Virus record (IMG/VR): IMGVR_UViG_3300020470_000137
Location: 1-30,227 of that record
Length of the DNA stretch: 30,227 nucleotides
Strand: one strand, 5' to 3'
DNA from: a virus
The first letter of the stretch is position 1; the number at the start of each line of letters is the position of its first letter. The notes under the pieces were generated by a model. It was not told where the DNA came from. It was given only the letters and a program-made list of their open reading frames with translations, and did no database searches. Made by a program: the position numbers and the translations under genes. Positions 91 through 23,672 of this stretch are shown here, piece by piece.

Positions 91-3000
91 ATGATATCTA
101 CAGACATACAAAGAGTTCAGCTGCAAAGTATAGTTGCAAATCAACTCCCTTCTTTTGTAAAGGATGATTTTCCTTTAATAGCTGACTTTTTAAAAGAATA
201 TTATATTTCTCAAGAATTCCCAGGAGCATCTGTTGATTTAATACAGAATATTGATGAGTATTTGAAATTAGAGTCGTTAACTAATAATGCACAGGAAACT
301 GAGTTGGGAGCAGATATTTCATATAATGATACCACCATTACAGTAGCATTTGATTTATCTAAAGAAATTTTTGGTACATATCAATTCCCTGAGAGAGATG
401 GATTGATTCAAATTGGTAATGAAATTATTCTATATTCAGAAAAAACTAAAACGTCATTTACAGGATGTAGAAGAGGATTCAGTGGTGTAACTTCTTATAA
501 ATCTTTAAACAACACTGATCAATTAACTTTTTCAACTTCCACTACTGCTAAACATAAAGGTGGAGATAAGATTGTTAATTTAAGTGCATTACTTTTTAAT
601 GAATTTTTACTTAAAATTAAAAATCAATTAAGTCCTGGTTTTGAGAATAGAACTCTTTCCAGTGATTTAAATCAAAGACTGTTTATATCACGATCAAAAG
701 ATTTTTATCAAGCTAAAGGAACAGATGAATCCTTTAAAATGCTTTTTGGTGTTTTGTATGGTGAAGCAGTAGAAGTATTAAAACCACAAAATTTTGTCTT
801 TAGACCTTCGGATGCTGATTATAGAGTTACAAAGGATTTAGTTGTTGAAGCAATAGAGGGAGATCCTTCTCAACTTTTAAATAGCACTTTATTCCAAGAT
901 GCCTATACCAACTATGATATAGATGCAGCTTATTCTCCTATTTCTGCAATAGAGAAAATATCTTATAATAGTAAGGATTATTATAAGTTAAGTCTTGATT
1001 TTAACTATGCTAAAGATATTCCTCTACAGGGAAGTATCTATGGTGAATTTACTGTTCATCCAAATACTAAAGTTATAACTCCTGTAGCGATTGGTGCAAG
1101 TGTAATTGATGTAGACTCTACAATAGGATTTCCAGATTCAGGTGAACTAGCAGTTGGATCAGGAATATTAACTTATAGATCAAAATCAATAAACCAGTTT
1201 TATGGAGTAGGGGTAGCAAATACAACAGATATTGGAACTACATCTAGTGTTGAATCAAAAGCAGATATAAGATTGAATGTTAATGCTTATGGTTATGTTG
1301 GTATCGGGACTACAACTAAAGTAACGGTTAAAATAGGATCTGTTCTTGCAGAACCTGTAATCCAAAATGATACTTATTATTATTCTGTTAATGATAAAGC
1401 AAAGGTACAATCTCTAGGAATTACAACTTCTGGGCCAAAAGTTGATAATTGGTTTTATAATGTAGCTACACAATATGACGTAAAATCTATAACACTAGTT
1501 GATTCATCTGATTTTACTTATACTATAGAAACTTATACTGAAAATAATTTCAGATTAGGTGATACAGTTACTGTTACTGATTCTGTTGGAAATAATAAAG
1601 ATTCTATTGTAAATGAAGTTATTAATGATTTTAATTTTTCTATTAGAGGACAGGGATCTCTTTCTTCCATTAAAAGTGTACAGAGAAATTTAACAAGAGC
1701 AAAAGTTGATGTAGCTTTAAAAGATTATTATTATATTGATAATTATTTTGCAAATATTCAAAATACTTATATAGACTTTGATCGAAATGTTTTAGTTGCT
1801 TCTCCTTCTATTCCAAATTACTTTAATGGACCTTTAGATTTTTATGATAAGAAGGTTACATTAACTGGATCGTATAGTGGGGACACTTTTACGGTTTTAG
1901 ATGTAAATGATCATGGATATTATACGGGAGATGCGGTTTACTATAATTCTTTTGATATAATTTCAGAAGATTTCTTAGGTAATGAAAGTATATCTGTTAG
2001 TAAGTTCCCTGAAATCAATCCAGGTATTTTCTTTGTAAAAAGAGTAAATAAAAATCAATTCCAACTGGCTACTAGTCCTAGTAATATTAATAATAATAGT
2101 TTTGTATCTGTTTCTGGTATTGTAACTTCTAATACTATACAGTATATTGATTATTTTGATAAAAAAGTTGATAATCAATTATTGTTAAAGGAGATAAAAG
2201 AACCAGATAATGAAAGTGGTAGTTATATTACAGAACCTGGTAGTAGAACTGGTATTCTTGTTAATGGTGTTGAAATTCTTAATTATAAATCCAAAGATAC
2301 GGTTTATTATGGCCCTCTTCAGAAGATTAATGTTAGTGCAGAAGGAAAAGATTATGATATTTTAAATCCTCCTCTTATAAACATTGAAGATACAGTTGGT
2401 AGTGGTGCAACCGCTATCGCTGCTATTAGAGGAAATCTAAATGCTATTGATATTGTGGATCCAGGTTTTGATTATGTATCAGATCCTATCATAACCATCA
2501 CAGGAGGAAATGGTGTTGGTGCAGAAGCTTTTGCTAACACCATTCTTGCAACTCATGATGTTTCCTTTAATGCTTTTGGTGTAAAAGATTCAGATTCTGC
2601 TCGAATCAACCTAGATGCGGATACTATTGGTTTTTCTACTTATCATAAATTTAGAAATGGTGAAAAAGTAATTTATAAACCAGATGGAGGATCATTAGTC
2701 ACTGGACTTACCACTGATGCGGTTTATTATGTTCATACAGTTGGAGTATCTACAGTAAAACTTTATAAAACTCAAGATCAAGCTATTTCAGCAGGAATTG
2801 AAACAGTATCGTTAACTGCTTACGGAACAGGAATACAGAGATTACAATCTTTTGATAAAAAGAAAGTTTTATCCAATATTATTATTAAAAATTCAGGTAC
2901 AGGTTACGAAAATAAAAAAAGAACGATTCTTTCATCTACAGGAATAAACACTGCTCTTAATCAAATACACATAGATGATCATGGATATCAATCTGAAGAA

Positions 3001-6000
3001 ATTATTCAATATTCATATGATAAAGATAGAATAAGTGGTATTAACTCAAATACTCAATATTTGGTTACTAAAGTAGATAATAATAGTTTTAAATTATCTA
3101 GTGTTGGTGTTGGAACCACTGCTAAATCTTTTTATTATGATAATAAGGAATATATTAATTTTACAGTTGCGGGTCTAGGTACTGGAACCCATTCTTTTAA
3201 CTATGAACCAATTACTGTTGATTTAAGTGGTGAGATCGGAGTTGCTACTGTTAGTGGACAAGATTTTAGAGCTAAAATTCAACCTTTGTTTAGGGGATAT
3301 ATTGATTCGGTACAAATAACGAATTCAGGTAATTCTTATGGATCTGATGAGATTCTTAACTATGATAGACAACCTCTTGTTACAACTAAAACAGGTACAG
3401 GAGCTCAAGTTACTCCAGTTATTAATAATGGAAAACTTGTTGATGTTTTAGTTGTTAATGAGGGTTTTGGATATAACTCTCCTCCATCATTAGAATTAGA
3501 AACAGATGGGGCTGGAAAATATGCTGAATTAGTTCCTGTTCTTAAGGATGGTCAACTTAAAAGTGTAAGAATTCATAATGCAGGAATTGGATATACTAAT
3601 AGAGTAATAGTAGATGTAACTCCAAGTGGATCAAACGCTAAATTCAAAGTAGATATTAAAAATTGGACAGTTAATTTATTTGAAAAATCTTTCGACATTA
3701 TTTCTAGCGATGATGGAATTTTAGATGAGGCAGAAAATAAAGATTTAGGTATTCAGTACACTCATTTGTATGCACCTAGAAAATTAAGAGAATCTTTATA
3801 TGTTAGAAATCAAAATAATGATATTAAATATGGACTTCTTGATTTAGAAAGAGTTGATGGACAAGAAGTAAGTGCTTCATATCATTCTCCCATAATAGGA
3901 TGGGCTTATGATGGAAATCCCATTTATGGTCCTTATGGGTACACTACTCCTACTGGAGGGGCAGTAAGAGCTATGGAGTCTGGTTATAAACCAGTAACTA
4001 GTGATACTAGACCTTCTTTGTCTAATTTCCATCAAGGATTTTTTGTTGAGGATTTTGTATTTGATAATGCTGGAGATTTGGATGAATATAATGGACGTTT
4101 TTGTGTAACACCAGATTATCCAAATGGTGTATATGCATATTTCGCTACCATTAATCCTGGTAATGTTGAAAGTTCAGGGCCATTCAATAAGTACAAAATT
4201 CCACAGTTCCCCTATTTAATTGGTAACTCTTTCCAATCAAAACCAAATTCTTTTAATTATGTCAAATCTAATAATCAGACAGATTATGATCTAAATTCTT
4301 CTAAGTGGTTTAGAAATACTACCCCCTATGCATTAACAAAGAATAATGCATCTTATGATTTCTTAGTTCAACCAAATAAAAAGAAAACCCCTATAGTTGA
4401 TATTAAGGTAACTTCTTCTGGACAAATTGATAATGTGGGAATTTTGACAGGAGGAAATAATTATCAAGTAGGTGAAAAGATTCTTTTTGAACCTTTAAGA
4501 GGATCTCAGACCGCCAAAGCTAAAATTAAAGAAGTAGAAGGAAAGGAAGTTACTACTATTAGTGTAGCGACTAGTTCAATAACAAATTTAGAAATAGCTC
4601 CATATGATTCAAATGGAACTTTTGTAGCCATTTCCACATTGCCTCATGATTTTGTAAATAAAAATTTAGTTTCATTATCTGGATTTAATACTTCTATTAG
4701 TTCTCTTGAAGGGAGTTTTAATATTGGAGTAAGAACTGAAACATTAAATCTGACTGGAGGAGTAAGTACTACAGGTGTCACTGGATTGGTAACATATTTT
4801 GGAGTATCGGGATCTTTAAATAGTGACTTATTATCAATCGGTGTGAATGATACTTTAGGAATAGGAACTGAAGATGTAAAAGTACTTTCTGTTGATAGAA
4901 AAAATTATAGATTAAGAGTTTTAAGAGCTCAGAATAATACTGTTTCTCTTGCTCATACTGCAACATCTGTAATAACAGAGGATTCTAGAAAATTCACTTA
5001 TGAGTCATCTCCTCAAGATGATGTAACTTTTGAGTTAAATAAAGAAATTTATTTTGAACCTAAGGAAGCTTTAGGAGTTGGAACTATTACTGGTGTAGGT
5101 ATTGGAACGACTATTTCATTCTCTAATCCAGGTGCTGGTTTAACGCAGATTTATATTCAAACTGAATCTATTTTCCTTCCAGACCATGAATTAAATACGG
5201 GTGATGTTTTAACTTATTATAACAATGGAGGTGATTCTATTGGTGTATCTACCGACGGACACACTGCATTTACCTTACCTAATAAATCCACTCTCTATGT
5301 TGGTAAAATTTCAAATGATCTCATTGGAATTTCTACTTTTAAAGTAGGAATAGGTACAACTGGTACTTTTGTAGGAGTAGCAGCTACAACTGAAACTAGA
5401 GGATTATTAAAATTTACTGGATTTGGTACAGGTGTTTATCATAGTTTTGAAACTAATAAAGATAATGTAGTTACTGCTGAAGTTACTAAGAATATTGTTA
5501 CAGTAGCGACTGGGGCAACTCATGCATTACTTTTGGATGATAATGTAACTGTGAATGTCCAACCAGGAATAATAACTTCAGTTACTGTAAAATATAATGA
5601 CTTTAATAGAAGAATAGTTTTTGACCCTAAAGATTTTGCATCAGGAGATGTTGATGTAACTAATAATACTATTAGTATTAGTGATCATCAGTTAAACAAT
5701 GGAGACAAGGTAATTTACACTGCATCCACGGCTGCTGGTGGATTGGAAAATAATAAAATTTACTATATCTTTAAACAATCCAAAAATAAAGTAAAACTTT
5801 GTTTAACTAGACATCAAGCACTACAATTTACTCCTGAGGTGGTTGATATAACTTCTGCTGCTGCTGGAACTTTATCACCAATTAATCCTCCTTTGGATGT
5901 TTATAATAACAATACTGTAAACTTTAATCTATCAGATTCTTCTTTAGGATCTAAAGTTGGTGTAAGTTCTGTGGCTGCTTTTGACTTTAATTTATATTCC

Positions 6001-9000
6001 GATAGTAATTATGCTCATATATTTAAATCCACCTCTCTAGATGATAAGTTTGAAGTAACTAAGACTGGAACAGTTGGAGTTTCTACTGATGCAGAATTAT
6101 CATTAGTGGTCTCAGAGGGTCTTCCTTCAGTATTATATTATAAATTTACTCCTATTGATTCTGATAATCTTCCCGAAAATAAAAAAGGTATAGTTATTGA
6201 TAAAGAGGTTGATAATTATAGTACACTGAATCTAAAAGAAAGTATATACACAGGAGAATTTGTTGTAACAGGAACTGGTGTTACCACAATCTTTACTTAC
6301 AATACTATACAAACTCCTGAAAGATCCTCTTATAGTTCAGCAGAAGCAAAAATTAAATACTCTACCGATTCTACAAGGGCATACGGAGGGATTGCTAAAG
6401 TTGATTTAACATATAAAGGAAATAATTATACAGAGATTGTAGGCGTATCATCAATTAAGAGTGGTATAGGAACTAAGGCAGTTTTAGAACCATCTAGTAC
6501 ATCTATCGGTGAAATAATTTCAACCAATATAGAGGATATTGGGTTTGATTATCCTAGTGATAATACCTTAAGACCTGTTTTGAATTTACCTGAAGTTCTT
6601 CAGATAGAATCATTGACTTCATTTGAATCTATTGGAATTAGTTCTGTAGGTAAAAATTATACGATTGCACCAAATCTAGTTGTTATTGATGGATTTACTG
6701 GAGCTCAGGTTAAAGATGTTGACATAGAATATGAAATTGGAGATTCTACAGTAACTATTCTAAAGAATACTTTTGGAATGAATCCTGTAACTCCAACTAT
6801 AATTCCAACAGCTAATGTTAACGGTATTGGTATTAATACAATCAGTTATAATATGTCTACGAAGGAAGTGACTGTGGCTATTAATACTAGTTTCAGTAGT
6901 GCGAGTGATGTACCTTTTGTAGTTGGAGATAAAGTTTTAATTGAAAATGTTAGTGTTGGACTTGGCACAACTGGAACTGGTTATAATTCACTTAATTATG
7001 GATATTCATTATTTGAATTAACAAAAACTCATTTTCCCTTGGGAGGAAATGTTGGAGTTGTTACTTATAGTTTAGATGGATATATTGAAGATAATATTTT
7101 CCCAGGAAACTTTGATGCTCTTAATTCAGCAGGTATAATTGTTCCTGAAAAATATTTCCCTCAATTTGATATTGCGTTAAAAACTAATGATTTCTTAGAT
7201 GGTGAAAAAGTCACTTCGGGTAACATTGTAGGTAATGTTGAAAATTGGAATAATAGAATTGAATTATTAAAAGTATCTACAGATTCTGAATTTGACATAG
7301 GAGATGTAATTGTTGGTGAAACCTCACATACTCAAGGAAAAGTTACTTCTAAAATTGATTTCAATGCTGAAATTAAATTGGAGGCTGGATCAGTAGTTAA
7401 AAAAGGATGGACAAGGGATACAGGTTTCTTTAACAATAATTTAGAAAGACTCCCTGATAATAATTACTATCAGAATTTCTCTTATTCTTTAAAATCAAAA
7501 GTTGACTATGATACTTGGAATGAACCTGTTTATAACCTTAATCATCCTACTGGATTCTTAAAATTTAGTGATTTGCAAGTAGAGTCAACTGATGATACTT
7601 CATCTAGTGTTAGTGCTGATGAGGCTGATCTTTTTGTCTTCATAGATTCCGAACGTGTAGTAGATATAAATTGCTATTCTGCATTTGATTTGGTTACAGA
7701 AAATTCTTTAAGTATTAGTGATACTCAAACTGTTTCAGATGAAGTATTTTTCAATTCTAGAGTTTTAACTGATTACTTTGAATCAGTTGGTAACAGAGCT
7801 TTAGTCATTGATGATTTTAGTTCTGAGTTTAATAGTGATCCTAGAGGAACCAAGTTTTCAACAATAGATACATTTGATCTTGATCAACGATCTGTAAAAT
7901 ATGTAACTTTAATAAAAGATGCTACCTTTACTGGAGAAAGACAAGTTGTAATGGTTTCTCTTCTAAATGATGGAACTCGGATGTATGTTAATAATTATGG
8001 TAAAGAAGGAACTGTAAGTGATCTAGGTTGGTTTGATGGAAATATAAGTGGTACAGAAGGTGAATTACTTTTCTATCCTACTAAATTTGCAAATAATAAT
8101 TATAACGTAAGTGCTATAAGTTTTGGTGTATTGGGAATTAGCACTGCAGGTATTGGAACTACTACTTTAGGAAGTAGTGTTGATATTAAATCCAGTACAG
8201 CTAGTGTTCCCGCCAATACTACTACAACTGTTGTTGGAATTGCTTCTACTTACAGAAGTTCTAAAATTATTGTTCAGATAAGTGGTGATGATGGTAATTT
8301 TGAATATGATGAGTTAAATGTTATTCATAATGGAACCACTGTTGATCTGATGGAATATTCACAACTTACTACTCATTCTGTTGATGAATATGGGGCGGAA
8401 GTCGGACTAGGAACTTATGCAGCTGACATGAGTGATGGTGATATTAATATAGACTTTATTCCTACTGCTGGAATAGCATGTACTGTTAATACTTTAAGAA
8501 TATCTATAGCAAGCACTTTATCAACAGGAGTGGGAACTCAATATCTAGGATCAGGTGATCAAGATTTGGGATTCCTTAATTCCTCTTATACACACATTGC
8601 ATCTGCAGGATCTCCATTAGCTCATAAGATTGCTGAATATGGTATTAATAATACCTCTGAAGTAGACGACAATAACGCTGCTTACTATGTGATCAGTGTT
8701 GAAGATACTGCTAATGAAGAATATGAGATGATAGAGGTAATTGTAGTTAATGATAGTTCAGAAGCATATATTACTGAATATGGAAACGTAACTACTAATG
8801 AAGGAGCAGTATATTCTGGATTAGGTACAGTTGGTGCTGCTGTTTCTACCACAACTTCACATACTCAATTGTTCTATACTCCAAATGCTGGTATTGGAGT
8901 TTCTGTTCGTGTTTTCCAAGCAGCACTTCAAATTGCAGCTGAAAATTCTGACATTGATTCTGTTGATGGTATTGATTTAGGCACAGCTGAGATCAACGGT

Positions 9001-12000
9001 GGATATGGTGTTTATGAAGGAACTGAAATAGATGTGAAACGTGCGTTTAACTTGCAACATAAACAAAAGAATATTTTCTCTCGAACCTTCGATGCAAGTG
9101 ATAGTACAATTGTAAATGTAACTGATAACACGGTTACCATTCCCGATCACTTCTTTGTAACTGGAGAAGAGATTACTTATGCTCAAGGTGGAACTCCTAT
9201 TAGTATTGCGTCCACAACTATTTCAGGAATTGGAGTTACTACCCTCCTTCCCTCTAATCTTTTCCTTGTTAAGGTTGATAATCAAACAGTTAAGTTTGCT
9301 AAGACTGCACAAGATGCTTTAAAAGAAGTTCCGAATATATTAGAATTTAGTGCTGTAGGTGTAGGTGCAGCTCACACTATATTTGCAAGAAATCAAAATA
9401 CTAAATGTTTAATTGCTATTGATAATGCAATACAATCACCTTTGGTATCAACTGCTGTTACTACAGGAATTACAAGTGAAATTGGTATTGCTCAAAGGGT
9501 CGTAAGTGTCTCAGGAGTAACATCATTCTTTGGTGGAGATTTGATTAAGATTAATGATGAGATAATGAAAGTCAATACGGTGGGTTATGGAACTACTAAT
9601 GCAATACTTGTTGAGCGTCCTTGGATGGGAACAAATTTAGGAATACACACTGAAAATTCTCTTGTAACTAAAGTTGATGGTGATTATCATATTGTTAATA
9701 ACCAAATTAATTTCATCACTGCTCCTCAAGGCCCTGTTCCCATAGGTAGCACTACTAATGCTCCTGATGATAGATATTGGGTAGGTATTACAACTCACTC
9801 CACGTTCCAAGGAAGATCGTTCATGAGATCTGGAATTGAAGATAGTAGTAAGAGAACTTATGAAACCAATTATCTATTTGATGATATCTCACATGAATTT
9901 AATGGTATCAGCACTGCATATACGTTAAAAGTTAATGGAGAGAATGTAGCAGGATTCTCCACTGATAATGGTGTTGTTTTAATTAATGGTGTATTCCAAG
10001 GACCAACAGGAGATTTACTACAAAGTCAAGATTATTCTTTTGTAGAAGGAAATACTGGAATTAGTAGTATAGTTTTTGCTGGAGTTGCAGCTTCTGTTGC
10101 TAGTGATCCTCAAAGCGGATCTATCCCTGTTGGTGGAATGATTGTCTCGGTAGGTTCTACTGAAGGTCTAGGATATCAACCTCTTGTTGCTGCTGGTGGA
10201 ACTGCTGTTGTTTCTGCTGCTGGTACTGTAAGTTCTATCAGTATTGGTAACTCAGGATCAGGTTATAGAGTAGGAGTTCAAACAACTGTTAATGTTGCTA
10301 TTCAAACAGGTACTAACATTACACCACTCTTAATTGGTATTGGTACTGCTGCAATTACTAATGGACATATCACAGGAATAGCAATTACAAATAATCAAGT
10401 AATTTATGTTCCTCGATCAATTTCAGATGTTGGATACAGTTCTGTAACAGGAGTTACAACAGTCACCACATCGACCTCACACGGTCTTCTAGTAGGGCAA
10501 GAAGTGAAGTTATCGGGAATTGCATTCACATGCGATTACCTCCCTGCTGTGGGCGTTCAGAGTGCCGTATACACTGCTTCTACAGGTATAATGACGGTTA
10601 CTACCTCTACTGCTCATGGACTATCTGTAAGTGGTAAAGCTAGTGATGTTATTCTAACGGGATTAGCATTTACATGTGCATTAGATAATGGTAGTGCTCT
10701 TCATCTATATCCTAGAACAACTGACCCCGCATATGGTGGTACGCAAGTTACAGGAGTAGCAAGTGTAACTCAATTTACAATTAACGCAGGTATTTCCACT
10801 GTTCCAACATTCTATGTTTCTGGAGGTACAATACAACCTGCTTTAATAGCACCTAGAAGTACTAATAATTCTTCTAGTGGTGCAGATCCAGCCTTCCAAG
10901 GATCTACTGTTTTAACAATTATTGATAATACTTCATTCACGATTAATTCTGGTGTATCCACAAGAGCACACTTCTATGCAAGAGGAGGAAGAGTTGATAG
11001 AGCGATGGATGTTGTAATTGACGAACCACTCTCTTACTCTGATATGCCTTTAATTTACAGTAGTGATTCTCCTGGTGGTGCGAGTGTGGGAGTTGGAACT
11101 CAAGCAACTGTTAATGTAGTTGTTGGGCAAGGTTCTAGTGTTGTCAGTTTTGAAGTGTTAAATGAAGGATATGCTTACGCAAATGATCAAGTCCTAACAG
11201 TGGCTATTGGAGGAACGACAGGTATCCCAACCGATACAACTAAAACCTTTAGAGAATTTCAAATCACCGTTGAAGATATCATATCAGATGAATTCTCTGC
11301 ATGGCATTTTGGTAACTTGGAAGTATTAGATAAGATTGAAAGTGAATTTGATGGAACTACCAGATCATTTACTCTTAAGAAAGATAAGGATCCTGTTACT
11401 ATTAGAGCAGCAGAAGGTTCTGATATTGATGTTCAGTCTACTCTTTTAGTATTCTTGAATGATATTTTACAAGTTCCTGGTGATGGTTATACATTGAGTG
11501 GAGGAAGTGTACTTACATTTGCATCAGCTCCTAGAGGGCCTCAAGTAGAGGGTTCATTCAAAGGTGATACTTGTAAGATTTTATTCTATAAGGGAACTGG
11601 TGATCAAGATGTGATATTTAATGATGTAAGAAAAACAGTAAAAACGGGAGATATGTTGACCATTCGCCATAATAAGGAATTATGTGCTAGGTCAATAGAA
11701 CAAGATGCTCGACTTGTAGAAGATGTGGTAGCCACTAATATCGTGGATACTAATGCTTATGCGGGTATGGGTATCAATGGAAGTCCTGACTGCGAGAGAC
11801 CTGTTACTTGGTGTAAGCAAACTGCGGATAAAGTAGTTAATGGACAAGTAATTAGTAAGAGTAGAGAAGAAGATAATGCAGCAGTTAATCCGACTACAGT
11901 TATTATTCAATCTGTGGGTGTTGGATCTACCGTAATTTACACTGAAAGTTTGAAACCTTTCTTTGATCCTGAAAATGAAAATCAAGGTAATGTAAAAACA

Positions 12001-12861
12001 CAAAAGATTTCTATTACTTCTCAAGATAATATTGTAGGGGCTGCTGCAACTGCTATCGTATCAATCGCTGGTACTATATCTTCAGTATCAGTAAGTTATG
12101 GGGGAACAGGATATACCTCTGCTCCTGATGTAATTATTGGTACACCTGTTGGATTGGGAACAACCACCAGAGCATCTGCAACTGCTACTCTTACAGGTGA
12201 TGCAGTTTCTTCTATTACTGTTACTTCTCCTGGCACAGGATACACCATTGCAACTCCTCCTGAAGTTCTTATTGAAGTTCCTTCTTTAACAAGAGAAGTT
12301 AATACCACGGGTAGTTATGAAGGTGACTTTGGAGAGATTATAGGAGTATCAACTACGTCTGTAGGAGTTGCATCCACGGGTGTAGTGTTTGATTTCTATA
12401 TTCCCACTAATTCGGTATTAAGAGATAGTATTATAGCAGGAACTGCGGTTACTATTAGTGGAATTCAAACAGGTTATTATTTCACTGTAAGTAATAGTAA
12501 TATTGGAAGTGGATTAACATCCTTATATCAAAATAATGGTGTTTTAGGTATAGGAACTACCTTTATAGATAATGTGTATGAAGTGGCTGCAGTATCGGTA
12601 GCACAAACTTCCACGCCAGGAATTGCCCTAACATACGTTGCTCAAGTAACAGTTAGTGTAGATTCTTATAATGGTTTAATCAATGCTGGTTTGGGATATA
12701 GTGAATTCTTTGGTAATTACTCATGGGGAAGAATAGATATGGGTGCTAGAAGTTCTCCAGAAGCTTTTACTGCTTATACTAATAATGGTTTTACAGGACT
12801 TTCTACTTCTGCTGTTATCAGTAGAGTAACTCCTTTAAGATCTAAAGATTATTCCTCTTAA
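91..12861 (+). CDS. gp7: Giant baseplate-wedge / fibre protein, gp7-like N-terminus (4256 aa)
   Basis: Virion structural protein, inferred to anchor in the baseplate through its N-terminus and project a long chain of beta-rich modules. Residues ~199-230 (SRSKDFYQAKGTDES..., then FGVLYGEAVEVL) resemble, as I recall it, the block in the C-terminal half of T4 gp7 (SRSYDFYSTKG..., KVLYNEEVEI). The gene also lies directly before gp8, as gene 7 does in T4. T4 gp7 is about 1030 residues, so this protein is four times longer and lacks gp7's N-terminal part. Downstream modules: IGxEIxxY/RRG/HxGG unit (~75-165, related unit 3138-3197); six DHG-type units (~604-3100); G-x-GY repeats (several between ~800 and 2200, and at 3995-4063); a YHYH-like domain (1262-1382); three tandem ~120-aa repeats (2602-2947); two FNG-x-LQ units (3264-3332, 3749-3836); HGL/AFTC units (3451-3640); a C-terminal NYSWGRI block. 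No signal peptide or membrane segment is seen. The ATG at 91 has no Shine-Dalgarno but begins the conserved N-terminal block. The gp7 assignment is moderate; structural protein is near certain. Confidence 0.8.
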   Translation: MISTDIQRVQLQSIVANQLPSFVKDDFPLIADFLKEYYISQEFPGASVDLIQNIDEYLKLESLTNNAQETELGADISYNDTTITVAFDLSKEIFGTYQFPERDGLIQIGNEIILYSEKTKTSFTGCRRGFSGVTSYKSLNNTDQLTFSTSTTAKHKGGDKIVNLSALLFNEFLLKIKNQLSPGFENRTLSSDLNQRLFISRSKDFYQAKGTDESFKMLFGVLYGEAVEVLKPQNFVFRPSDADYRVTKDLVVEAIEGDPSQLLNSTLFQDAYTNYDIDAAYSPISAIEKISYNSKDYYKLSLDFNYAKDIPLQGSIYGEFTVHPNTKVITPVAIGASVIDVDSTIGFPDSGELAVGSGILTYRSKSINQFYGVGVANTTDIGTTSSVESKADIRLNVNAYGYVGIGTTTKVTVKIGSVLAEPVIQNDTYYYSVNDKAKVQSLGITTSGPKVDNWFYNVATQYDVKSITLVDSSDFTYTIETYTENNFRLGDTVTVTDSVGNNKDSIVNEVINDFNFSIRGQGSLSSIKSVQRNLTRAKVDVALKDYYYIDNYFANIQNTYIDFDRNVLVASPSIPNYFNGPLDFYDKKVTLTGSYSGDTFTVLDVNDHGYYTGDAVYYNSFDIISEDFLGNESISVSKFPEINPGIFFVKRVNKNQFQLATSPSNINNNSFVSVSGIVTSNTIQYIDYFDKKVDNQLLLKEIKEPDNESGSYITEPGSRTGILVNGVEILNYKSKDTVYYGPLQKINVSAEGKDYDILNPPLINIEDTVGSGATAIAAIRGNLNAIDIVDPGFDYVSDPIITITGGNGVGAEAFANTILATHDVSFNAFGVKDSDSARINLDADTIGFSTYHKFRNGEKVIYKPDGGSLVTGLTTDAVYYVHTVGVSTVKLYKTQDQAISAGIETVSLTAYGTGIQRLQSFDKKKVLSNIIIKNSGTGYENKKRTILSSTGINTALNQIHIDDHGYQSEEIIQYSYDKDRISGINSNTQYLVTKVDNNSFKLSSVGVGTTAKSFYYDNKEYINFTVAGLGTGTHSFNYEPITVDLSGEIGVATVSGQDFRAKIQPLFRGYIDSVQITNSGNSYGSDEILNYDRQPLVTTKTGTGAQVTPVINNGKLVDVLVVNEGFGYNSPPSLELETDGAGKYAELVPVLKDGQLKSVRIHNAGIGYTNRVIVDVTPSGSNAKFKVDIKNWTVNLFEKSFDIISSDDGILDEAENKDLGIQYTHLYAPRKLRESLYVRNQNNDIKYGLLDLERVDGQEVSASYHSPIIGWAYDGNPIYGPYGYTTPTGGAVRAMESGYKPVTSDTRPSLSNFHQGFFVEDFVFDNAGDLDEYNGRFCVTPDYPNGVYAYFATINPGNVESSGPFNKYKIPQFPYLIGNSFQSKPNSFNYVKSNNQTDYDLNSSKWFRNTTPYALTKNNASYDFLVQPNKKKTPIVDIKVTSSGQIDNVGILTGGNNYQVGEKILFEPLRGSQTAKAKIKEVEGKEVTTISVATSSITNLEIAPYDSNGTFVAISTLPHDFVNKNLVSLSGFNTSISSLEGSFNIGVRTETLNLTGGVSTTGVTGLVTYFGVSGSLNSDLLSIGVNDTLGIGTEDVKVLSVDRKNYRLRVLRAQNNTVSLAHTATSVITEDSRKFTYESSPQDDVTFELNKEIYFEPKEALGVGTITGVGIGTTISFSNPGAGLTQIYIQTESIFLPDHELNTGDVLTYYNNGGDSIGVSTDGHTAFTLPNKSTLYVGKISNDLIGISTFKVGIGTTGTFVGVAATTETRGLLKFTGFGTGVYHSFETNKDNVVTAEVTKNIVTVATGATHALLLDDNVTVNVQPGIITSVTVKYNDFNRRIVFDPKDFASGDVDVTNNTISISDHQLNNGDKVIYTASTAAGGLENNKIYYIFKQSKNKVKLCLTRHQALQFTPEVVDITSAAAGTLSPINPPLDVYNNNTVNFNLSDSSLGSKVGVSSVAAFDFNLYSDSNYAHIFKSTSLDDKFEVTKTGTVGVSTDAELSLVVSEGLPSVLYYKFTPIDSDNLPENKKGIVIDKEVDNYSTLNLKESIYTGEFVVTGTGVTTIFTYNTIQTPERSSYSSAEAKIKYSTDSTRAYGGIAKVDLTYKGNNYTEIVGVSSIKSGIGTKAVLEPSSTSIGEIISTNIEDIGFDYPSDNTLRPVLNLPEVLQIESLTSFESIGISSVGKNYTIAPNLVVIDGFTGAQVKDVDIEYEIGDSTVTILKNTFGMNPVTPTIIPTANVNGIGINTISYNMSTKEVTVAINTSFSSASDVPFVVGDKVLIENVSVGLGTTGTGYNSLNYGYSLFELTKTHFPLGGNVGVVTYSLDGYIEDNIFPGNFDALNSAGIIVPEKYFPQFDIALKTNDFLDGEKVTSGNIVGNVENWNNRIELLKVSTDSEFDIGDVIVGETSHTQGKVTSKIDFNAEIKLEAGSVVKKGWTRDTGFFNNNLERLPDNNYYQNFSYSLKSKVDYDTWNEPVYNLNHPTGFLKFSDLQVESTDDTSSSVSADEADLFVFIDSERVVDINCYSAFDLVTENSLSISDTQTVSDEVFFNSRVLTDYFESVGNRALVIDDFSSEFNSDPRGTKFSTIDTFDLDQRSVKYVTLIKDATFTGERQVVMVSLLNDGTRMYVNNYGKEGTVSDLGWFDGNISGTEGELLFYPTKFANNNYNVSAISFGVLGISTAGIGTTTLGSSVDIKSSTASVPANTTTTVVGIASTYRSSKIIVQISGDDGNFEYDELNVIHNGTTVDLMEYSQLTTHSVDEYGAEVGLGTYAADMSDGDINIDFIPTAGIACTVNTLRISIASTLSTGVGTQYLGSGDQDLGFLNSSYTHIASAGSPLAHKIAEYGINNTSEVDDNNAAYYVISVEDTANEEYEMIEVIVVNDSSEAYITEYGNVTTNEGAVYSGLGTVGAAVSTTTSHTQLFYTPNAGIGVSVRVFQAALQIAAENSDIDSVDGIDLGTAEINGGYGVYEGTEIDVKRAFNLQHKQKNIFSRTFDASDSTIVNVTDNTVTIPDHFFVTGEEITYAQGGTPISIASTTISGIGVTTLLPSNLFLVKVDNQTVKFAKTAQDALKEVPNILEFSAVGVGAAHTIFARNQNTKCLIAIDNAIQSPLVSTAVTTGITSEIGIAQRVVSVSGVTSFFGGDLIKINDEIMKVNTVGYGTTNAILVERPWMGTNLGIHTENSLVTKVDGDYHIVNNQINFITAPQGPVPIGSTTNAPDDRYWVGITTHSTFQGRSFMRSGIEDSSKRTYETNYLFDDISHEFNGISTAYTLKVNGENVAGFSTDNGVVLINGVFQGPTGDLLQSQDYSFVEGNTGISSIVFAGVAASVASDPQSGSIPVGGMIVSVGSTEGLGYQPLVAAGGTAVVSAAGTVSSISIGNSGSGYRVGVQTTVNVAIQTGTNITPLLIGIGTAAITNGHITGIAITNNQVIYVPRSISDVGYSSVTGVTTVTTSTSHGLLVGQEVKLSGIAFTCDYLPAVGVQSAVYTASTGIMTVTTSTAHGLSVSGKASDVILTGLAFTCALDNGSALHLYPRTTDPAYGGTQVTGVASVTQFTINAGISTVPTFYVSGGTIQPALIAPRSTNNSSSGADPAFQGSTVLTIIDNTSFTINSGVSTRAHFYARGGRVDRAMDVVIDEPLSYSDMPLIYSSDSPGGASVGVGTQATVNVVVGQGSSVVSFEVLNEGYAYANDQVLTVAIGGTTGIPTDTTKTFREFQITVEDIISDEFSAWHFGNLEVLDKIESEFDGTTRSFTLKKDKDPVTIRAAEGSDIDVQSTLLVFLNDILQVPGDGYTLSGGSVLTFASAPRGPQVEGSFKGDTCKILFYKGTGDQDVIFNDVRKTVKTGDMLTIRHNKELCARSIEQDARLVEDVVATNIVDTNAYAGMGINGSPDCERPVTWCKQTADKVVNGQVISKSREEDNAAVNPTTVIIQSVGVGSTVIYTESLKPFFDPENENQGNVKTQKISITSQDNIVGAAATAIVSIAGTISSVSVSYGGTGYTSAPDVIIGTPVGLGTTTRASATATLTGDAVSSITVTSPGTGYTIATPPEVLIEVPSLTREVNTTGSYEGDFGEIIGVSTTSVGVASTGVVFDFYIPTNSVLRDSIIAGTAVTISGIQTGYYFTVSNSNIGSGLTSLYQNNGVLGIGTTFIDNVYEVAAVSVAQTSTPGIALTYVAQVTVSVDSYNGLINAGLGYSEFFGNYSWGRIDMGARSSPEAFTAYTNNGFTGLSTSAVISRVTPLRSKDYSS
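685..780 (+). other. gp7-like core motif in the giant protein
   Basis: Residues 199-230 encode SRSKDFYQAKGTDESFKM followed by LFGVLYGEAVEVL. The layout (SRS-x-DFY-x-x-KG, then SFKMLFGVLY, then acidic/hydrophobic VEVL) is the one I remember in T4 gp7 and in wedge proteins of other contractile-tailed phages. It is the main evidence that the fibre-like 4256-aa protein is rooted in the baseplate. A profile comparison has not been made. Confidence 0.6.
3874..4236 (+). other. YHYH-like domain within the giant protein
   Basis: Residues 1262-1382 show the order of elements typical of the YHYH domain family: SPIIGWAYDGNPIYGPYGY (1266-1284), then DLDEYNGRFCVTPDYPNG (1329-1346), then VYAYFATI (1347-1354), then FPYLIGNSF (1373-1381). 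The namesake Y-H-Y-H tetrad reads Y-A-Y-F here, so both histidines are lost while the GWAYDGNPIYGPYG signature is intact. The family's biochemical role is not established. In a virion protein it is more likely a structural or surface-binding module than an enzyme. Confidence 0.75.
7894..8931 (+). repeat. Three tandem ~120-aa divergent protein repeats
   Basis: Residues ~2602-2680, 2723-2807 and 2864-2947 of the giant protein share one pattern. A strand with V/I alternation (KYVTLIKD, KIIVQISGDD, YYVISVED) is followed by YE/YD-x-x-E and an NDGT/HNGT/NDSS turn. Then come a Y-x-x-x-YG or EYG element and a G-rich loop, and each ends with a strand of the type LLFYPT, IDFIPTAG or LFYTPNAG. The third unit contains EVIVVNDSSEAYITEYG. 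The repeats are clear in protein but have diverged in DNA. They look like stacked beta-sandwich modules of a fibre. Confidence 0.6.
10441..11010 (+). repeat. HGL / AFTC beta modules in the giant protein
   Basis: Residues ~3451-3640 contain two units starting TVTTSTSHGLLVGQEVKLSG and TVTTSTAHGLSVSGKAS, each followed by GIAFTC or GLAFTC. Each continues with a Phe-rich strand (TQFTINAGIST, TSFTINSGVST), and they end YVSGG and YARGG. A unit of the same type occurs in the last gene of the window (29281-29526). The second copy seems partly embedded in the first, as if by nested duplication. Confidence 0.6.
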
Positions 12862-12868
12862 CAATCTT

Positions 12869-12880
12869 AATAAATAAATA
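12869..12880 (+). promoter_or_regulatory. Overlapping AATAAATA boxes before gp8 (weak late-promoter candidate)
   Basis: Two overlapping matches to the T4-type late promoter element (NATAAATA) lie at 12869-12876 and 12873-12880 in the 32-base gap between the giant gene and gp8. They end only 13-17 bases before the gp8 ATG. Initiation a few bases downstream of the box would leave almost no leader, and no Shine-Dalgarno sequence is visible. The match may simply reflect AT-rich spacer DNA. Confidence 0.3.
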
Positions 12881-12893
12881 AAAACTCTGTCCA

Positions 12894-14447
12894 ATGGCTG
12901 CAATTATAACTGATCAACTGCGTATATTAAATACTAAGGATTTTGTAGCAAGCGTAGCTTCAACAACAAATTCTTATTATACTTGGATTGGGTTGCCTAA
13001 TCCTACCCAAGTAGATTCTGATTGGAATGTGACTCCCCCCGATCCGAAAGATAGTTTCGATGAGGAAGACAATTATTGGGATACAATGATTGCTCTGAAG
13101 AAAATAACTACATCAGATGTGAAGCAAGTGGTGAGTAAGAATACTTGGACATCAGGTATTACTTATGATATGTACAGAGGTGATATTACTTCGACCAACT
13201 TATCAAAACCTTCTAATGCTACCAATTTATATGATGCTAATTACTTTGTAATGAATTCTGATTACAAAGTTTATATTTGCTTACAAAATGGTACGGATCC
13301 TGATAATCCAGATGGCAGAGCATCTTTGGATGAACCAACATTTACTGATTTAGAACCAAGGGCAGCTGGTACTAGTGGCGATGGTTATATTTGGAAATAT
13401 CTTTATACAATTAAACCTGGTGATATCATAAAGTTTGATTCTACAGACTTTATGCCTGTTCCTAAGGATTGGTCTACTAATGCTGCTGATGCGGCAGTGA
13501 GAGATAATGCATCCACTAGTGGTCAACTTAAAATTGTTACTATCACTAATAGAGGAGTTGGATTAGGAACAGCAAATCAAACTTATACTAAAGTTCCTAT
13601 TAAAGGAGATGGAACTGGTGCTGAAGCTACTGTTGTTATTAATAGCAATTCAAAAGTTGAGTCAGTTACTGTTTCCAAGGGTGGTTCTGGATATAGTTTT
13701 GGAACTTTAGATTTGGATGCAGGAGGAGTTCCTGCAGGTTCTACTGATCCTGTATTTAATGTTATTATCCCACCTCAGGGAGGACATGGATCTGATATAT
13801 ATCGGGAATTAGGAGCCAAAAACGCTCTTCTTTATTCAAGGATTGAAAATGATACAGAGAATCCTGATTTCATAACAGGAAATCAATTTGGACGTATTGG
13901 TATAGTTCAAAATCCTAAAGCATATGGTACGAGTACAAATTTAGAATTAGATAAAGCAAGTGCTGTTTACGCACTTAAACTAACAGGAGCTGGATCTAGT
14001 ACTGCTACATTTAATGCAGATGCATTTATTACTCAAACTGTTGGTTTAGGATCTACTGCTATCGGAAGAGTTATTTCTTATGATCAAAATACTCAAGTTT
14101 TGAAATATTGGCAAGATAGAACAACTGCTGGATTTAATACTAATGGTACTCAAAATTCAGATCCAGAATATGGATTTACTCTCAACAGATTTAGTTCTAC
14201 TACCCATACTGGTGGGTCGTTAAATATTATTGGAGGATCTGCTACTTTAGCAATCCAAAGTTCATTTACAGGTGTATCTACTGTAATAAATAGTAAGACG
14301 TATTATCTTGGACAGTCATTCACCAAAGGAGTGGCAAATCCAGAAGTTAGAAAATATTCTGGCAATATTATTTACGTTGATAATAGACCAGCAATCACTA
14401 GGTCTACCAACCAAAAAGAAGATATCAAAGTCATTTTGCAATTCTAA
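12894..14447 (+). CDS. gp8: Baseplate wedge subunit gp8 (517 aa, with an internal module)
   Basis: gp8 is a subunit of the baseplate wedge that sits against gp7 and links to neighbouring wedge and fibre proteins. The N-terminal part carries family landmarks also present in T4 gp8: YWDTMIALKKI (61-71), the YDMYRGD block (91-97), YKVYICLQN (124-132) and GDGYIWKYLYTI (162-173). The C-terminus has IIYVDNRPAITRSTNQKEDI (492-511), then KVILQF, which is also typical. T4 gp8 is about 334 residues; much of the excess is a segment around 212-292. That segment carries the G-x-G-Y type repeat (KIVTITNRGVGLG..., VESVTVSKGGSGYSFG) seen in the giant proteins. The gene follows the gp7-like gene by 32 bases and is 6 bases ahead of the next gene. 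No Shine-Dalgarno sequence is evident at the ATG. Assignment is strong; the idea that residues 212-292 are an insertion is an inference from length and repeat type. Confidence 0.88.
   Translation: MAAIITDQLRILNTKDFVASVASTTNSYYTWIGLPNPTQVDSDWNVTPPDPKDSFDEEDNYWDTMIALKKITTSDVKQVVSKNTWTSGITYDMYRGDITSTNLSKPSNATNLYDANYFVMNSDYKVYICLQNGTDPDNPDGRASLDEPTFTDLEPRAAGTSGDGYIWKYLYTIKPGDIIKFDSTDFMPVPKDWSTNAADAAVRDNASTSGQLKIVTITNRGVGLGTANQTYTKVPIKGDGTGAEATVVINSNSKVESVTVSKGGSGYSFGTLDLDAGGVPAGSTDPVFNVIIPPQGGHGSDIYRELGAKNALLYSRIENDTENPDFITGNQFGRIGIVQNPKAYGTSTNLELDKASAVYALKLTGAGSSTATFNADAFITQTVGLGSTAIGRVISYDQNTQVLKYWQDRTTAGFNTNGTQNSDPEYGFTLNRFSSTTHTGGSLNIIGGSATLAIQSSFTGVSTVINSKTYYLGQSFTKGVANPEVRKYSGNIIYVDNRPAITRSTNQKEDIKVILQF
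13527..13769 (+). repeat. G-x-GY beta repeats inserted in gp8
   Basis: Residues ~212-292 of gp8 hold two copies of the pattern 'strand ending TIT/TV, then NRGVGLG or KGGSGY, then a strand with a V or L pair' (TITNRGVGLG and VTVSKGGSGYSFG), separated by GDGTGAEATVVI. The same layout recurs in the giant protein, gp14, the DUF4815-type protein and the last gene. It is not part of gp8 as I know it from T4. Confidence 0.55.
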
Positions 14448-14453
14448 AGAATT

Positions 14454-17400
14454 ATGTCTCAGGAAACCAATCTAAACGTAGCTCCCTACTTTGACGATTT
14501 TAATGCAAATAATGACTATTATAAGGTACTATTTAAACCTGCTTATCCAGTTCAAGCAAGGGAGTTAAATAATCTCCAATCAATATTACAAAATCAGGTT
14601 GAAAAACTAGGGCAACATTTTTTTAAAGATGGTGCGAAAGTAATTCCTGGTAATACATCTTTTAACACGTCATATTATGCAATTGAATTAGAAGATAAGT
14701 ATTTGGGTATACCTTTGTCTGATTATATTAATCAAGTGAAGGGATCAAAAATTACAGGATTGACTTCTGGTGTTACAGCTATCGTTGATAAAGTTCTTTT
14801 ATCTAGAAATTCAGAAAAGGGAAGATATACTTTATATGTTAATTACGTAGGATCAAATTCTGCAGATAATTCTTCATTAACATTTTTAGATAATGAGTTA
14901 TTAAGTTCAAATGAAGATATCTTATCTGCTAACACAATTATTCCGCCAGGAGAAGCATTTGCGTCTACGGGAGTAAGTGGTGCTAATTCTATTGGATCCT
15001 CATTCTCTATTTCCAATGGAATATATTTTGCACGAGGAAATTTTGTTACTGTTCAGGATGAAACTATTCTTCTAGATCAATATTCAAATACACCTAGTTA
15101 TAGGATAGGACTATTTTTAAATGAGCAAATAATTAACTCTGATATTGATCCCAGTCTCAATGATAATGCAAGAGGATTTACTAACTATGCAGCTCCAGGT
15201 GCGGATAGATTTAAGATTACAACTTCATTATTTAAAAAAGCTTTAGATGATTATGATGATAATAATTTTATTGAACTGGCAACTATTGAAAATGGTGTAT
15301 TAAAATCCCAAAAAGAATCAACAGAGTATAATATCCTTCAAGATGAACTAGCAAGAAGAACCTATGAAGAATCGGGTGATTATTACATCAAACCATTTAA
15401 TACTTCCCTTAAAGAATCTTTAAATAATTATAAGGGAAATAATGGTATATTTAATGCAAATCAAACTACCTATAGTGGAGGTGTTCCTTCAGATGATTTA
15501 GCATTATATAATATTTCTCCAGGTAAGGCATATGTAAAAGGATATGAGATAGAGAAAATTAGTTCTACATATTTGGATGTTAAAAAACCAAGAACTACAA
15601 AATCACTAGAAGATCAAGGTATTGATTATCATACTGGATCTACCATAAAATTAAATAGATTTTATGGATCCCCTAAAATTGGTATTGGTAACACTTATGT
15701 CCTAAGTTTAAGAGATAAAAGAGTTGGTGCGGCTGCTACTCTCCCTGCAGGTAAAGAAATTGGAGTAGCAAGAGTATATGATGTTGATTTAGAATCAGGA
15801 TCATATGATAGAGCTAATTCAAATACTAATGAGTGGGACTTAATTCTTTATGATGTTCAAACAGTTACTGAAATTACTTTAAATGAACCAATAACATTAG
15901 CAGTACCTACTCATATCAAGGGTAAGTATAGTGGAGCTACAGCATTTTTGAAAGATGCTGCAACTAACACTACTTCTTTATCTGTATATGAGGTAGAAGG
16001 TGAGTTTGTACAAGATGAAAACTTTGTTATAGATGGTGTAGAAAATACAAGAGTTGCTATTGCAGTAACAACATTTGGTATTTCAGATATTAAATCAGTA
16101 TTTGGAAATACTAATGGTTCTAATATGAATACTGTTGGTGCAGCACAGACATTCTCAGCTGACACTATTCAAACTCCTATTACAAATATAGGGGTAGCAA
16201 CTATAACTCCTCATCGATATGATTCTGGTCTTTCAGGATATCCTAGTGGATCTATTAGTACAGTAAGAAGCACCAATCCACTATTTCCAGGAGATATTAA
16301 AGTTGGAAATATTCTTCAATTTAGTCCTTCTCAAACCAGTGAATTTAATGATCCAATCCTTGCCAGTGTAGTTAGTGTTGGCACAACTCATGTTGTAATG
16401 ACAGGGGTTCATACTGTTAGTGGTGTGGCTGATGGTAAATTACCTGATGCAATAACTCAAGTCTCTGATCTAAAAGTAGTAGGAACAGATTTATTAAAAT
16501 CCGATGATAATTCCTTCTATACTATTTTACCAAAAAGAAATATAGAAAATGTAGATTTAACAGATGCTTCTTTAACAATCAGAAAATCTCAAAGTGTTCG
16601 TATAGTTGGTAACCAACTTTCGGAAGCAGTATCTTCTGGTAGTAATCAAACATTTTTACCATTCACTCCTGAAAGGTATTCTCTAATTAAAAGTGATGGA
16701 ACTACTGAAACTTTAACAAGTGATAAAGTTCAATTTAATTCAGGGTCTACTGAAGTAAATATTTTTGGATTAAGCACTGGTACAGATGATGCTACTTTAA
16801 TTACTACTATTAAGAAATTAAAACCAAAATCCAAGAAAAAAATAAGAAATAGAGTTAATAGTATTATTGTAGATAAATCTACAGAATCAGCTTCTGGAAT
16901 TGGATCTACTACCTTAAATGATGGTTTGACATTTGGTAACTATCCATTTGGAACTAGGGTTCAGGATGATAGAATATCTCTTAATGTAGCAGATCTTATA
17001 GAGATTCAAGGAATTTATGAGTCGGTTGATACAGGTAATCCATCAGCACCTAGTGTTGTTATATCTGCTCTTACAGGACCAACAGGTAAAACTTCCGATT
17101 TGATTATAGGAGAACAATTCAAAGGTAAAACTACGAATTCTTGTGCTATTGTTGCTGAAAGAATTTCCGATTCTAAGATAACATTTATTCCTAAAAATGA
17201 TTTAAACTTTAAAGAGGGTGAAGTTATCCGTTTTGAAGAATCTAAAATAGAAGGAGTTGTTACTACATTAGACACAACCGATTTCAATATTACTTCCAAT
17301 TTCACCACTGATAATGGACAAAATCAATCTTTCTATAATTACCCTACAATTAATAGAAAAACGGATGTAGAAGCTCCTGAGAAGAGATTAAAAATTTATT

Positions 17401-22823: not shown

Positions 22824-23672
22824 ATGGCTCAACCAAACAGTAGGACGGAATTAATTAATTATGCCAAAAGGCAGTTGGGTGCTCCTGTCTTGGAAATAAA
22901 TGTTGCTGATGAGCAAGTAGAAGATATATTGGATGATGCTATTCAATATTTTCATGAAAGACATTTTGATGGAGTTCTAAGAACCTATTTAAAATATCAA
23001 GTAACACAGAATGATATTGATAGGGGAAAGGGGCCTGGAGAAGCGGGAGTAACAGGTATAACAACAACTACAGCTACTGCTACCATTGATGGAGCATCAA
23101 TGGATTTTGATTGGAAAGAAAATAGTAATTATTTACAAGTTCCACCTGCTGTTATTGGAGTAGAGAAAATATTTCATTTTGACGGAAGTAACACTGTTAC
23201 TAACAACATGTTCAGTGTTAAATATCAGTTATTTTTAAATGATGTAGCATTTAATCTTGGATATAATGGTCTTTTAAGTTATGCCATGACACGGACTTAC
23301 TTAGAAGATATTAATTTCTTACTAACCACACAAAAACAGATAAGATTTAATCAAAGAATGGATAGGTTATATCTTGATATTGATTGGTCTAGTCTTACAT
23401 CAGGGGATTGGTTAATTTTGGATTGTTATAGAACTCTTGATCCGAATGATTATACTAGAGTATACAATGATTCCTTCCTTAAGAAATATTTTACTGCCTT
23501 GTTAAAGAGGCAATGGGGACAAAATTTAATTAAATTCCAAGGAGTAAAACTTCCTGGTGGAGTTGAACTTGATGGTAGAGCCATTTATGAAGATGCTATG
23601 AAAGATTTGGAAATTATAAGAGAAATGATGTCCAATACTTATGAACTTCCACCTCTTGATATGATAGGATAA
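22824..23672 (+). CDS. gp13: Neck protein gp13
   Basis: Head-tail connector (neck) protein that, in T4, joins with gp14 to complete the DNA-filled head before the tail attaches. The sequence is a full-length match in layout: an N-terminal NYAKRQLGAPVLEINVADEQ (12-31), VEDILDDAIQYFHERHFDGV, KYQLFLNDVAFNLG, TYLEDINFLLTTQKQIRFNQ, RMDRLYLDIDWSSL, WLILDCYRTLDP and LKRQWGQNLIKFQGVKLPGG, ending PPLDMIG. Its 282 residues are close to T4 gp13 (~309). Unlike its neighbours it carries no obvious fibre-type insertion; only a Thr-rich loop (ITTTTATATIDG) near residue 80 looks variable. It overlaps gp14 by one base (TAATG), which suggests coupled translation and equimolar production of the two neck proteins. 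Confidence 0.93.
   Translation: MAQPNSRTELINYAKRQLGAPVLEINVADEQVEDILDDAIQYFHERHFDGVLRTYLKYQVTQNDIDRGKGPGEAGVTGITTTTATATIDGASMDFDWKENSNYLQVPPAVIGVEKIFHFDGSNTVTNNMFSVKYQLFLNDVAFNLGYNGLLSYAMTRTYLEDINFLLTTQKQIRFNQRMDRLYLDIDWSSLTSGDWLILDCYRTLDPNDYTRVYNDSFLKKYFTALLKRQWGQNLIKFQGVKLPGGVELDGRAIYEDAMKDLEIIREMMSNTYELPPLDMIG

Follow-up and report, generated by a model that had tools for sequence, protein, structure and literature searches.

The window analyzed here, a 30,227-base fragment from a virus record, opens with the 3' end of gp6 (positions 1 to 54, + strand), whose Gly-rich C-terminus also ends the gp6 ORF of a closely related contig. An ORF at 91 to 12861 (+) follows, with 4256 codons, no internal stop, and a product of about 457 kDa; over its whole length, from residue 7 to residue 4251, the ORF aligned with one family, phrog_2885, which has 4179 columns and the annotation "baseplate wedge subunit." On the same strand lie gp8 of the baseplate wedge (12894 to 14447; phrog_438, E = 2e-163; PF09215) and a VrlC-like protein (DUF4815) that is distinct from gp7 (14454 to 21935; phrog_358; PF16075, E = 2e-50). 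Farther downstream come two small ORFs (phrog_473; L-shaped fibre assembly) and gp13-like, gp14-like, gp15, and gp16 genes. A fibre ORF of at least 1221 aa (26563 to 30225) stands after gp16, inserted ahead of the expected gp17, and runs past the end of the window. A contig 95% identical to the window over residues 1 to 330 of the giant protein carries intact gp25, gp6 (698 aa), and gp7 in this order, and its gp6 ORF was recognized by phrog_219 ("baseplate wedge subunit"; E = 2.6e-191). From the window and the related contig together, the T4 gene order is therefore recovered, with gp9 to gp12 replaced. An earlier note on this DNA had placed the giant ORF before gp8, and the flanking genes agree with this; the same gp25-gp6-gp7-gp8 placement is found in S-SM2, Bellamy, and P-SSM2. 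Contigs sharing 90 to 96% identity with the window protein over residues 1 to 320 exist, and an assembly artefact was ruled out as the origin of the giant ORF, since the collinear family phrog_2885 and closely related contigs cover it. In some relatives, but not in the window, a further gene separates gp7 from gp8: in P-TIM68 (28942 to 31386) this gene gave a short match (E = 2.6e-8) to PF07880, the N-terminal domain of gp9/gp10, and in RN05-S (18681 to 20012) it is annotated as a tail fibre connector.

The earlier note had also reported a block of T4 gp7 within the giant ORF at positions 685 to 780, which encode residues 199 to 230, ISRSKDFYQAKGTDESFKMLFGVLYGEAVEVL, and this block proved to be real. 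When residues 192 to 232 were compared with PDB chains by phmmer, they matched residues 721 to 761 of T4 gp7 (5hx2_A, E = 1.2e-4) and a second gp7 sequence (9f4a_AY, E = 1.9e-3), with no match to anything other than gp7 at E < 10 in this chain set. With a profile of 29 sequences of relatives, two gp7 sequences led at E = 9e-6 and 1.2e-5. Moreover, an HMM of this segment (the KGT block) trained on nine gp7s from outside the Kyanoviridae, with the window left out, scored 43.5 bits at residues 192 to 242 (664 to 816, +), compared to 2.7 bits for the best of 200 shuffles. Recognition was direct both ways: a Kyanoviridae-only HMM gave T6 35.8 bits, and a Straboviridae-only HMM gave the window 32.7 bits. 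Residues 1 to 60 (91 to 270, +) contain the first helices of the core, with the motif QLPxFV..DFPL..xFLKxYYxxQE, and were assigned from invariant columns and from hhalign to the N-terminus of the small gp7s; in the alignment built from Kyanoviridae N-termini, residues 10 to 334 aligned with the small gp7s of OC, YB07, phiM9, and RHph at E = 1e-17. Behind the KGT block, a beta domain at residues 245 to 306 (823 to 1008, +) gave a weak hhalign match to the same place in T-even gp7, and its strands were predicted with a pLDDT of about 80.

Structure prediction gave a concordant but weak result. The AlphaFold model of residues 1 to 330 had a mean pLDDT of 63, and Foldseek with this low-confidence model returned 9f4a_A0 (E = 1.5e-5), 5iv5_BJ (E = 2.4e-4), and T4 gp7 5hx2_A (E = 6.4e-3) at ranks 1 to 3. 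All three are baseplate chains of 1,004 to 1,031 residues, and global TM-scores to gp7 were low (0.13 to 0.16); we infer from chain length and entry that 9f4a_A0 and 5iv5_BJ are also gp7. The model of residues 2329 to 2520 had a mean pLDDT of 55, and its top fold match, again 9f4a_A0, was nonsignificant (E = 0.88). The structural test, as far as such models go, thus lends supportive but weak evidence to the gp7 identity. Sequence, position, and the best structure match together support the conclusion that ORF 91 to 12861 encodes the orthologue of gp7.

The earlier note had confined the gp7 homology to the N-terminus, which did not hold. A second core element (YYQ.FSY...HP.G), containing NNYYQNFSYSLKSKVDYDTWNEPVYNLNHPTGFLKF, lies at residues 2456 to 2502 (7456 to 7596, +), where an HMM of the HPxG region from non-Kyanoviridae gp7s scored 24.0 bits (i-E = 3e-8; best shuffle, 3.3). 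The HPxG motif was first noticed by eye and the HMMs were built afterwards; the window was outside the training sets. Directly before this element is a further beta domain (residues 2369 to 2418; 7195 to 7344, +) predicted with a pLDDT of 84 to 91, for which the fold match was nonsignificant. Both non-Kyanoviridae HMMs matched all 14 Kyanoviridae gp7s compared (the window and 13 others) and, in addition, S-PM2p081, in which the two elements scored 29.3 and 39.3 bits. The HPxG peptide was found at 468 places in 467 phage records, as a rule once per record; nearly all of these records were of cyanophages, the others being of OC, pf16, and Desulfovibrio phages. Among the ORFs of the window, the element is confined to gp7, and its interpretation as a general wedge feature was rejected because gp6, gp8, gp10, and gp25 gave no significant match.

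The connection of the second element to T4 is less direct than that of the KGT block. The small gp7s aligned with T-even gp7 at E = 1e-8 through the second motif around HPxG (hhalign). A Kyanoviridae-only HMM of the element gave T6 11.4 bits (best shuffle, 4.6), but a Straboviridae-only HMM scored the window at -2.2 bits and thus did not recognize it, though the alignment fell at the right place. Neither direct phmmer of the PDB with OC gp7 as the query nor a profile of the second element alone against the PDB chain set found gp7, and the T4 link of this element therefore rests on the HMMs and the hhalign path. Its homology to T4 thus runs through OC- and YB07-like proteins.

From these alignments, the gp7 core is very probably split in two, with about 2,040 to 2,100 residues inserted between the halves and a tail of 1,754 residues after the second half. 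Comparison with other gp7 sequences demonstrated three sites of growth. Site 1 is a beta module between the first helices and the KGT block (283 to 570, +) that is absent from OC and YB07; it occupies about 100 aa in the window and about 600 aa in S-TIM4, S-ShM2, and P-RSM3. The stretch ahead of the KGT block measures about 200 aa in the clade of the window and about 700 aa in those three phages, compared to 90 to 92 aa for OC and YB07. The same module recurs in the window protein at residues 337 to 402 and 3114 to 3192. Site 2 comprises residues 331 to 2368 (1081 to 7194, +), was delimited by its modules and by the spacing of the core halves, and contains a YHYH domain along with modules of the Hbarrel and GY-repeat types. 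The spacing is 2222 aa in the window and 1,575 to 2,820 aa in the Kyanoviridae compared (window included), versus 88 to 89 aa in T-even gp7, 111 aa in OC, 273 aa in YB07, and 430 to 432 aa in phiM9 and RHph. Site 3 is the C-terminal tail (7597 to 12858, +), delimited by comparison of tail lengths: 132 to 137 aa in T-even gp7, 14 aa in S-CREM2, and 1,426 to 3,715 aa in the other Kyanoviridae compared, the longest being that of P-RSM3; the tail of P-SSM2 measures 2,670 residues.

S-CREM2 is the most informative of these relatives. Its gp122, of 1937 aa, lies between gp6-like and gp8-like genes, and the non-Kyanoviridae HMMs located the KGT element at residues 173 to 232 and the HPxG element at 1874 to 1923, after which 14 residues remain. 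The large expansion of this protein sits wholly between the core halves and is therefore an insertion into the core rather than a chain appended to a cap. Mass spectrometry of purified virions detected gp122, with 27.2% of the protein covered by 91 unique peptides (PMC10665884).

Giant gp7s as such are already known. S-SM2 (4156 aa), Bellamy (4067 aa), and P-SSM2 (5195 aa) have a protein at this position that is annotated as gp7 or as baseplate wedge initiator, and GenBank labels orthologues "gp7" in several cyanophages; in the other Kyanoviridae retrieved, the protein at the gp7 position ranges from 3,048 to 7,312 aa, apart from the 1,937 aa of S-CREM2. The giant size is accordingly not peculiar to this genome but found across the Kyanoviridae (1937 to 7312 aa). 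The annotations of the S-SM2, Bellamy, P-SSM2, and P-TIM68 proteins as gp7 cover the whole protein and do not mention a split core. In the three complete relatives S-SM2, Bellamy, and P-SSM2, no separate gp7 gene of the kind that the earlier note had named as a refutation was found: a phrog_964 profile matched one gp7-like place per genome. The genome of the window, represented by a fragment of 30,227 bases, might still have a second. The published record differs. Sullivan et al. (2010) placed gp7 in the non-cyanophage core (PMC3037559), and according to a 2020 paper, cyano- and pelagimyophages lack gp7 and have VrlC in its stead (PMC7029224). Judged by the sequence evidence, the split gp7 contradicts this published absence, and the statement should be corrected. 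S-PM2p081 (5073 to 14219) is annotated as hypothetical, yet it carries both gp7 core elements. Two smaller proteins with both elements also have no functional annotation: gp212 of Pseudomonas phage pf16 (3882 to 5453; elements at residues 70 to 127 and 371 to 419), annotated as hypothetical, and the ORF at 5293 to 7053 of Desulfovibrio phage 7757 (elements at 71 to 131 and 239 to 286), whose record is unannotated.

The inserted chains are built from recurring modules. The window gp7 contains six copies of the Hbarrel beta module, three copies of a "GFP...EIxxY" module, and a YHYH domain at residues 1260 to 1356 (3868 to 4158, +; PF14240, E = 1.3e-23). The earlier note had called the protein a fibre mosaic; the term is loose, the modules being repeated beta domains and not recognized trimeric fibres. 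GY repeats are common to gp7, gp14, gp8, and the fibre ORF, and therefore several virion proteins use one module pool; another gp7 repeat is common to the fibre ORF. In the gp14-like protein (23672 to 25066), three GY repeats follow the head-closure domain (residues 255 to 367), and gp8 has one at residues 238 to 278. A cassette of about 200 aa with fibmod repeats (residues 3440 to 3640; 10408 to 11010, +) is missing from most relatives: nearly all of those tabulated lack it while being about 60% identical on both flanks, and the two closest retain it at 80 to 98%. One of its repeats also occurs in the fibre ORF at 26563 to 30225 (fibre residues 904 to 945). Exchange of modules is evident in these comparisons, and for the cassette they suggest recombination between the gp7 and fibre genes.

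In the window, gp7 begins with the core, and the N-terminal domains of T4 gp7 (residues 1 to 600), which in T4 function with gp10 and gp11, are missing. Both T4 gp7 1 to 600 and gp11 (PF08677) were present in all four Straboviridae searched; neither was found in five Kyanoviridae, OC, YB07, and phiM9, with a threshold of E <= 0.01 for T4 gp7 1 to 600 in the five Kyanoviridae genomes. Relatives of these two are thus undetectable by sequence in the related genomes. The gp9/gp10 N-terminal domain (PF07880) gave one short match in P-TIM68 and a weak match in phiM9 and was otherwise absent from the same non-Straboviridae set. In agreement with this, g10, g11, and g12 were reported missing from cyanomyoviruses (PMC2984593). 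T4 gp10 touches gp7 at its domain B, with which the whole gp10-gp11-gp12 unit presumably moves (PMC3004832). The core lies at or near the N-terminus in several non-Straboviridae lineages (OC, YB07, pf16, and Desulfovibrio phage 7757 among them) and T4 gp7 1 to 600 was found in the Straboviridae alone, which makes a loss by cyanophages less economical. Probably, therefore, the Straboviridae gained the N-terminal domains along with the gp10-gp11 pins, and the suggestion of the earlier note that the wedge initiator had shrunk to a C-terminal part probably runs counter to the actual direction of change.

We consider it highly likely that the giant ORF encodes a split-core gp7 wedge subunit with covalent arms. 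By analogy with T4 and XM1, gp7 would join two gp6 subunits in a (gp6)2-gp7 wedge trimer through its split core. The wedge core would be formed by two halves packed as in T4, one being the helical N-terminal region that includes the KGT block (residues 1 to 60 and about 165 to 330) and the other the HPxG element (about 2370 to 2502). Between the halves, about 2,040 residues of successive beta domains would loop out, and another chain, some 1,750 residues long, would leave from the C-terminus. We infer the packing, the copy number, and the shape and function of the arms from this analogy. With six copies per baseplate, as in T4, there would be twelve covalent arms, and the six proteins would total about 2.7 MDa, versus about 0.7 MDa for T-even gp7 (copy number as in T4; PMC3004832). 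Appendages built into the wedge protein, as the earlier note had envisaged, are the natural reading of a gp7 orthologue with such long module chains. The arms probably constitute the outer baseplate, taking over the roles of the N-terminal domains of T4 gp7, gp10, and gp11, and might dock fibres, possibly touch the host, and signal directly to the wedge core. They would replace the network of pins and short fibres as a docking surface and perhaps as adhesins, although receptor binding by the arms themselves is less likely than not. It is likewise only a tentative proposal that pin, short-fibre, and receptor-binding functions moved into one wedge polypeptide in marine T4-like cyanophages; in that event, the two arms, at the core loop and the C-terminus, would carry exchangeable adhesin cassettes, and host contact would reach the (gp6)2-gp7 core directly, without a gp10-gp11-gp12 relay.

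Other explanations of the giant ORF were weighed against this one. If gp7 had been reduced to a C-terminal block capping about 4,000 residues of fibre modules, a match of residues 192 to 232 to T4 gp7 721 to 761 with a long module chain behind it is what one would see, but the second core element at residues 2456 to 2502, its place at the C-terminal end of the S-CREM2 protein with almost nothing appended, and small gp7s of other lineages that already begin with the core make such a cap highly improbable. Scarcely tenable is the view that T4 gp7 is absent, that VrlC replaces it, and that the giant ORF encodes a different structural protein. It is stated in print (PMC7029224) and accords with the listing of gp7 in the non-cyanophage core (PMC3037559) and with the hypothetical annotation of S-PM2p081; however, it is the ORF flanked by gp6 and gp8 that has the gp7 core elements, as does S-PM2p081, and VrlC (DUF4815) is a separate ORF after gp8 with zero matches to either non-Kyanoviridae gp7 HMM.

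Two further possibilities concern the fate and function of the split gp7. Its arms could be passive, forming a thicker or double-layered baseplate or a platform for fibre docking without receptor contact of their own, and to this variant of the preferred reading we give an even chance. Much of the protein keeps the same order and about 60% identity from relative to relative, as a scaffold would, separate fibre ORFs exist (26563 to 30225), and the loops of XM1 gp17 bind spikes rather than receptors; against it, a discrete 200-residue cassette has been swapped, with repeats common to the fibre ORF. Alternatively, the protein could be cleaved during assembly, with the modules becoming separate virion proteins. 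Very long virion proteins are sometimes processed, which is no direct support for cleavage here, and we regard it as very unlikely: the 91 unique peptides of S-CREM2 gp122 were reported for a single virion protein, and the second core element, located after the insertion, would drop out of the wedge chain.

T4-like cyanophages are among the most abundant viruses of the ocean, and the split-core gp7 bears on where their baseplate pins and short fibres went. No published Kyanoviridae baseplate structure was found in the literature searched; with gp7 present, split, and carrying thousands of residues at defined sites, there are named residues to look for in cryo-EM maps. Annotations such as that of S-PM2p081 are corrected as well. 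The results suggest that a core part of a contraction machine can accommodate over 2,000 inserted residues within its conserved core, that the simple phage XM1 has its spikes at the same kinds of sites (internal loop and C-terminus), and that large outer baseplate structures may be built directly into the core machinery by the phage.

Among the closest known systems, the gp7s of S-SM2, Bellamy, P-SSM2, and P-TIM68 are collinear with the window protein, 39 to 51% identical to it over the first 320 residues, and of the same split geometry; those of S-SM2, Bellamy, and P-TIM68 lack the cassette at residues 3440 to 3640 that the window has. T4 gp7 shares the KGT block, a weak second element, the gp6-gp7-gp8 order, and the best structural match, but its core block is preceded by about 700 residues and its halves are about 88 apart, whereas the corresponding lengths in the window protein are 203 and 2222, with a further 1,754 residues behind the core. 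The small gp7s of Ochrobactrum phage OC (631 aa), Stenotrophomonas phage YB07 (503 aa), pf16 (523 aa), and phiM9 (903 aa) possess both elements in the same order as the window, with 111 to 432 residues between the halves and without the giant expansion; that of Desulfovibrio phage 7757 is of similar size (~586 aa). The VrlC/DUF4815 protein resembles the window gp7 in being a giant, neighboring product of the baseplate region and is the gp7 substitute proposed in print, but it has its own ORF (14454 to 21935) and no gp7 core element; of the three large ORFs scanned, it alone matched PF16075, and the gp7 ORF did not. In Vibrio phage XM1, gp17 is a gp7 orthologue of 242 aa whose residues 80 to 106 and 201 to 242 each carry six tail spikes (PMC10457771). 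As related in that study, its core is N-terminal and its spike-carrying extras occupy an internal loop and the C-terminus, as in the window protein, although they measure 27 and 42 residues versus about 2,040 and 1,754. By this analogy, XM1 gp17 would be the best precedent for the function of the gp7 arms.
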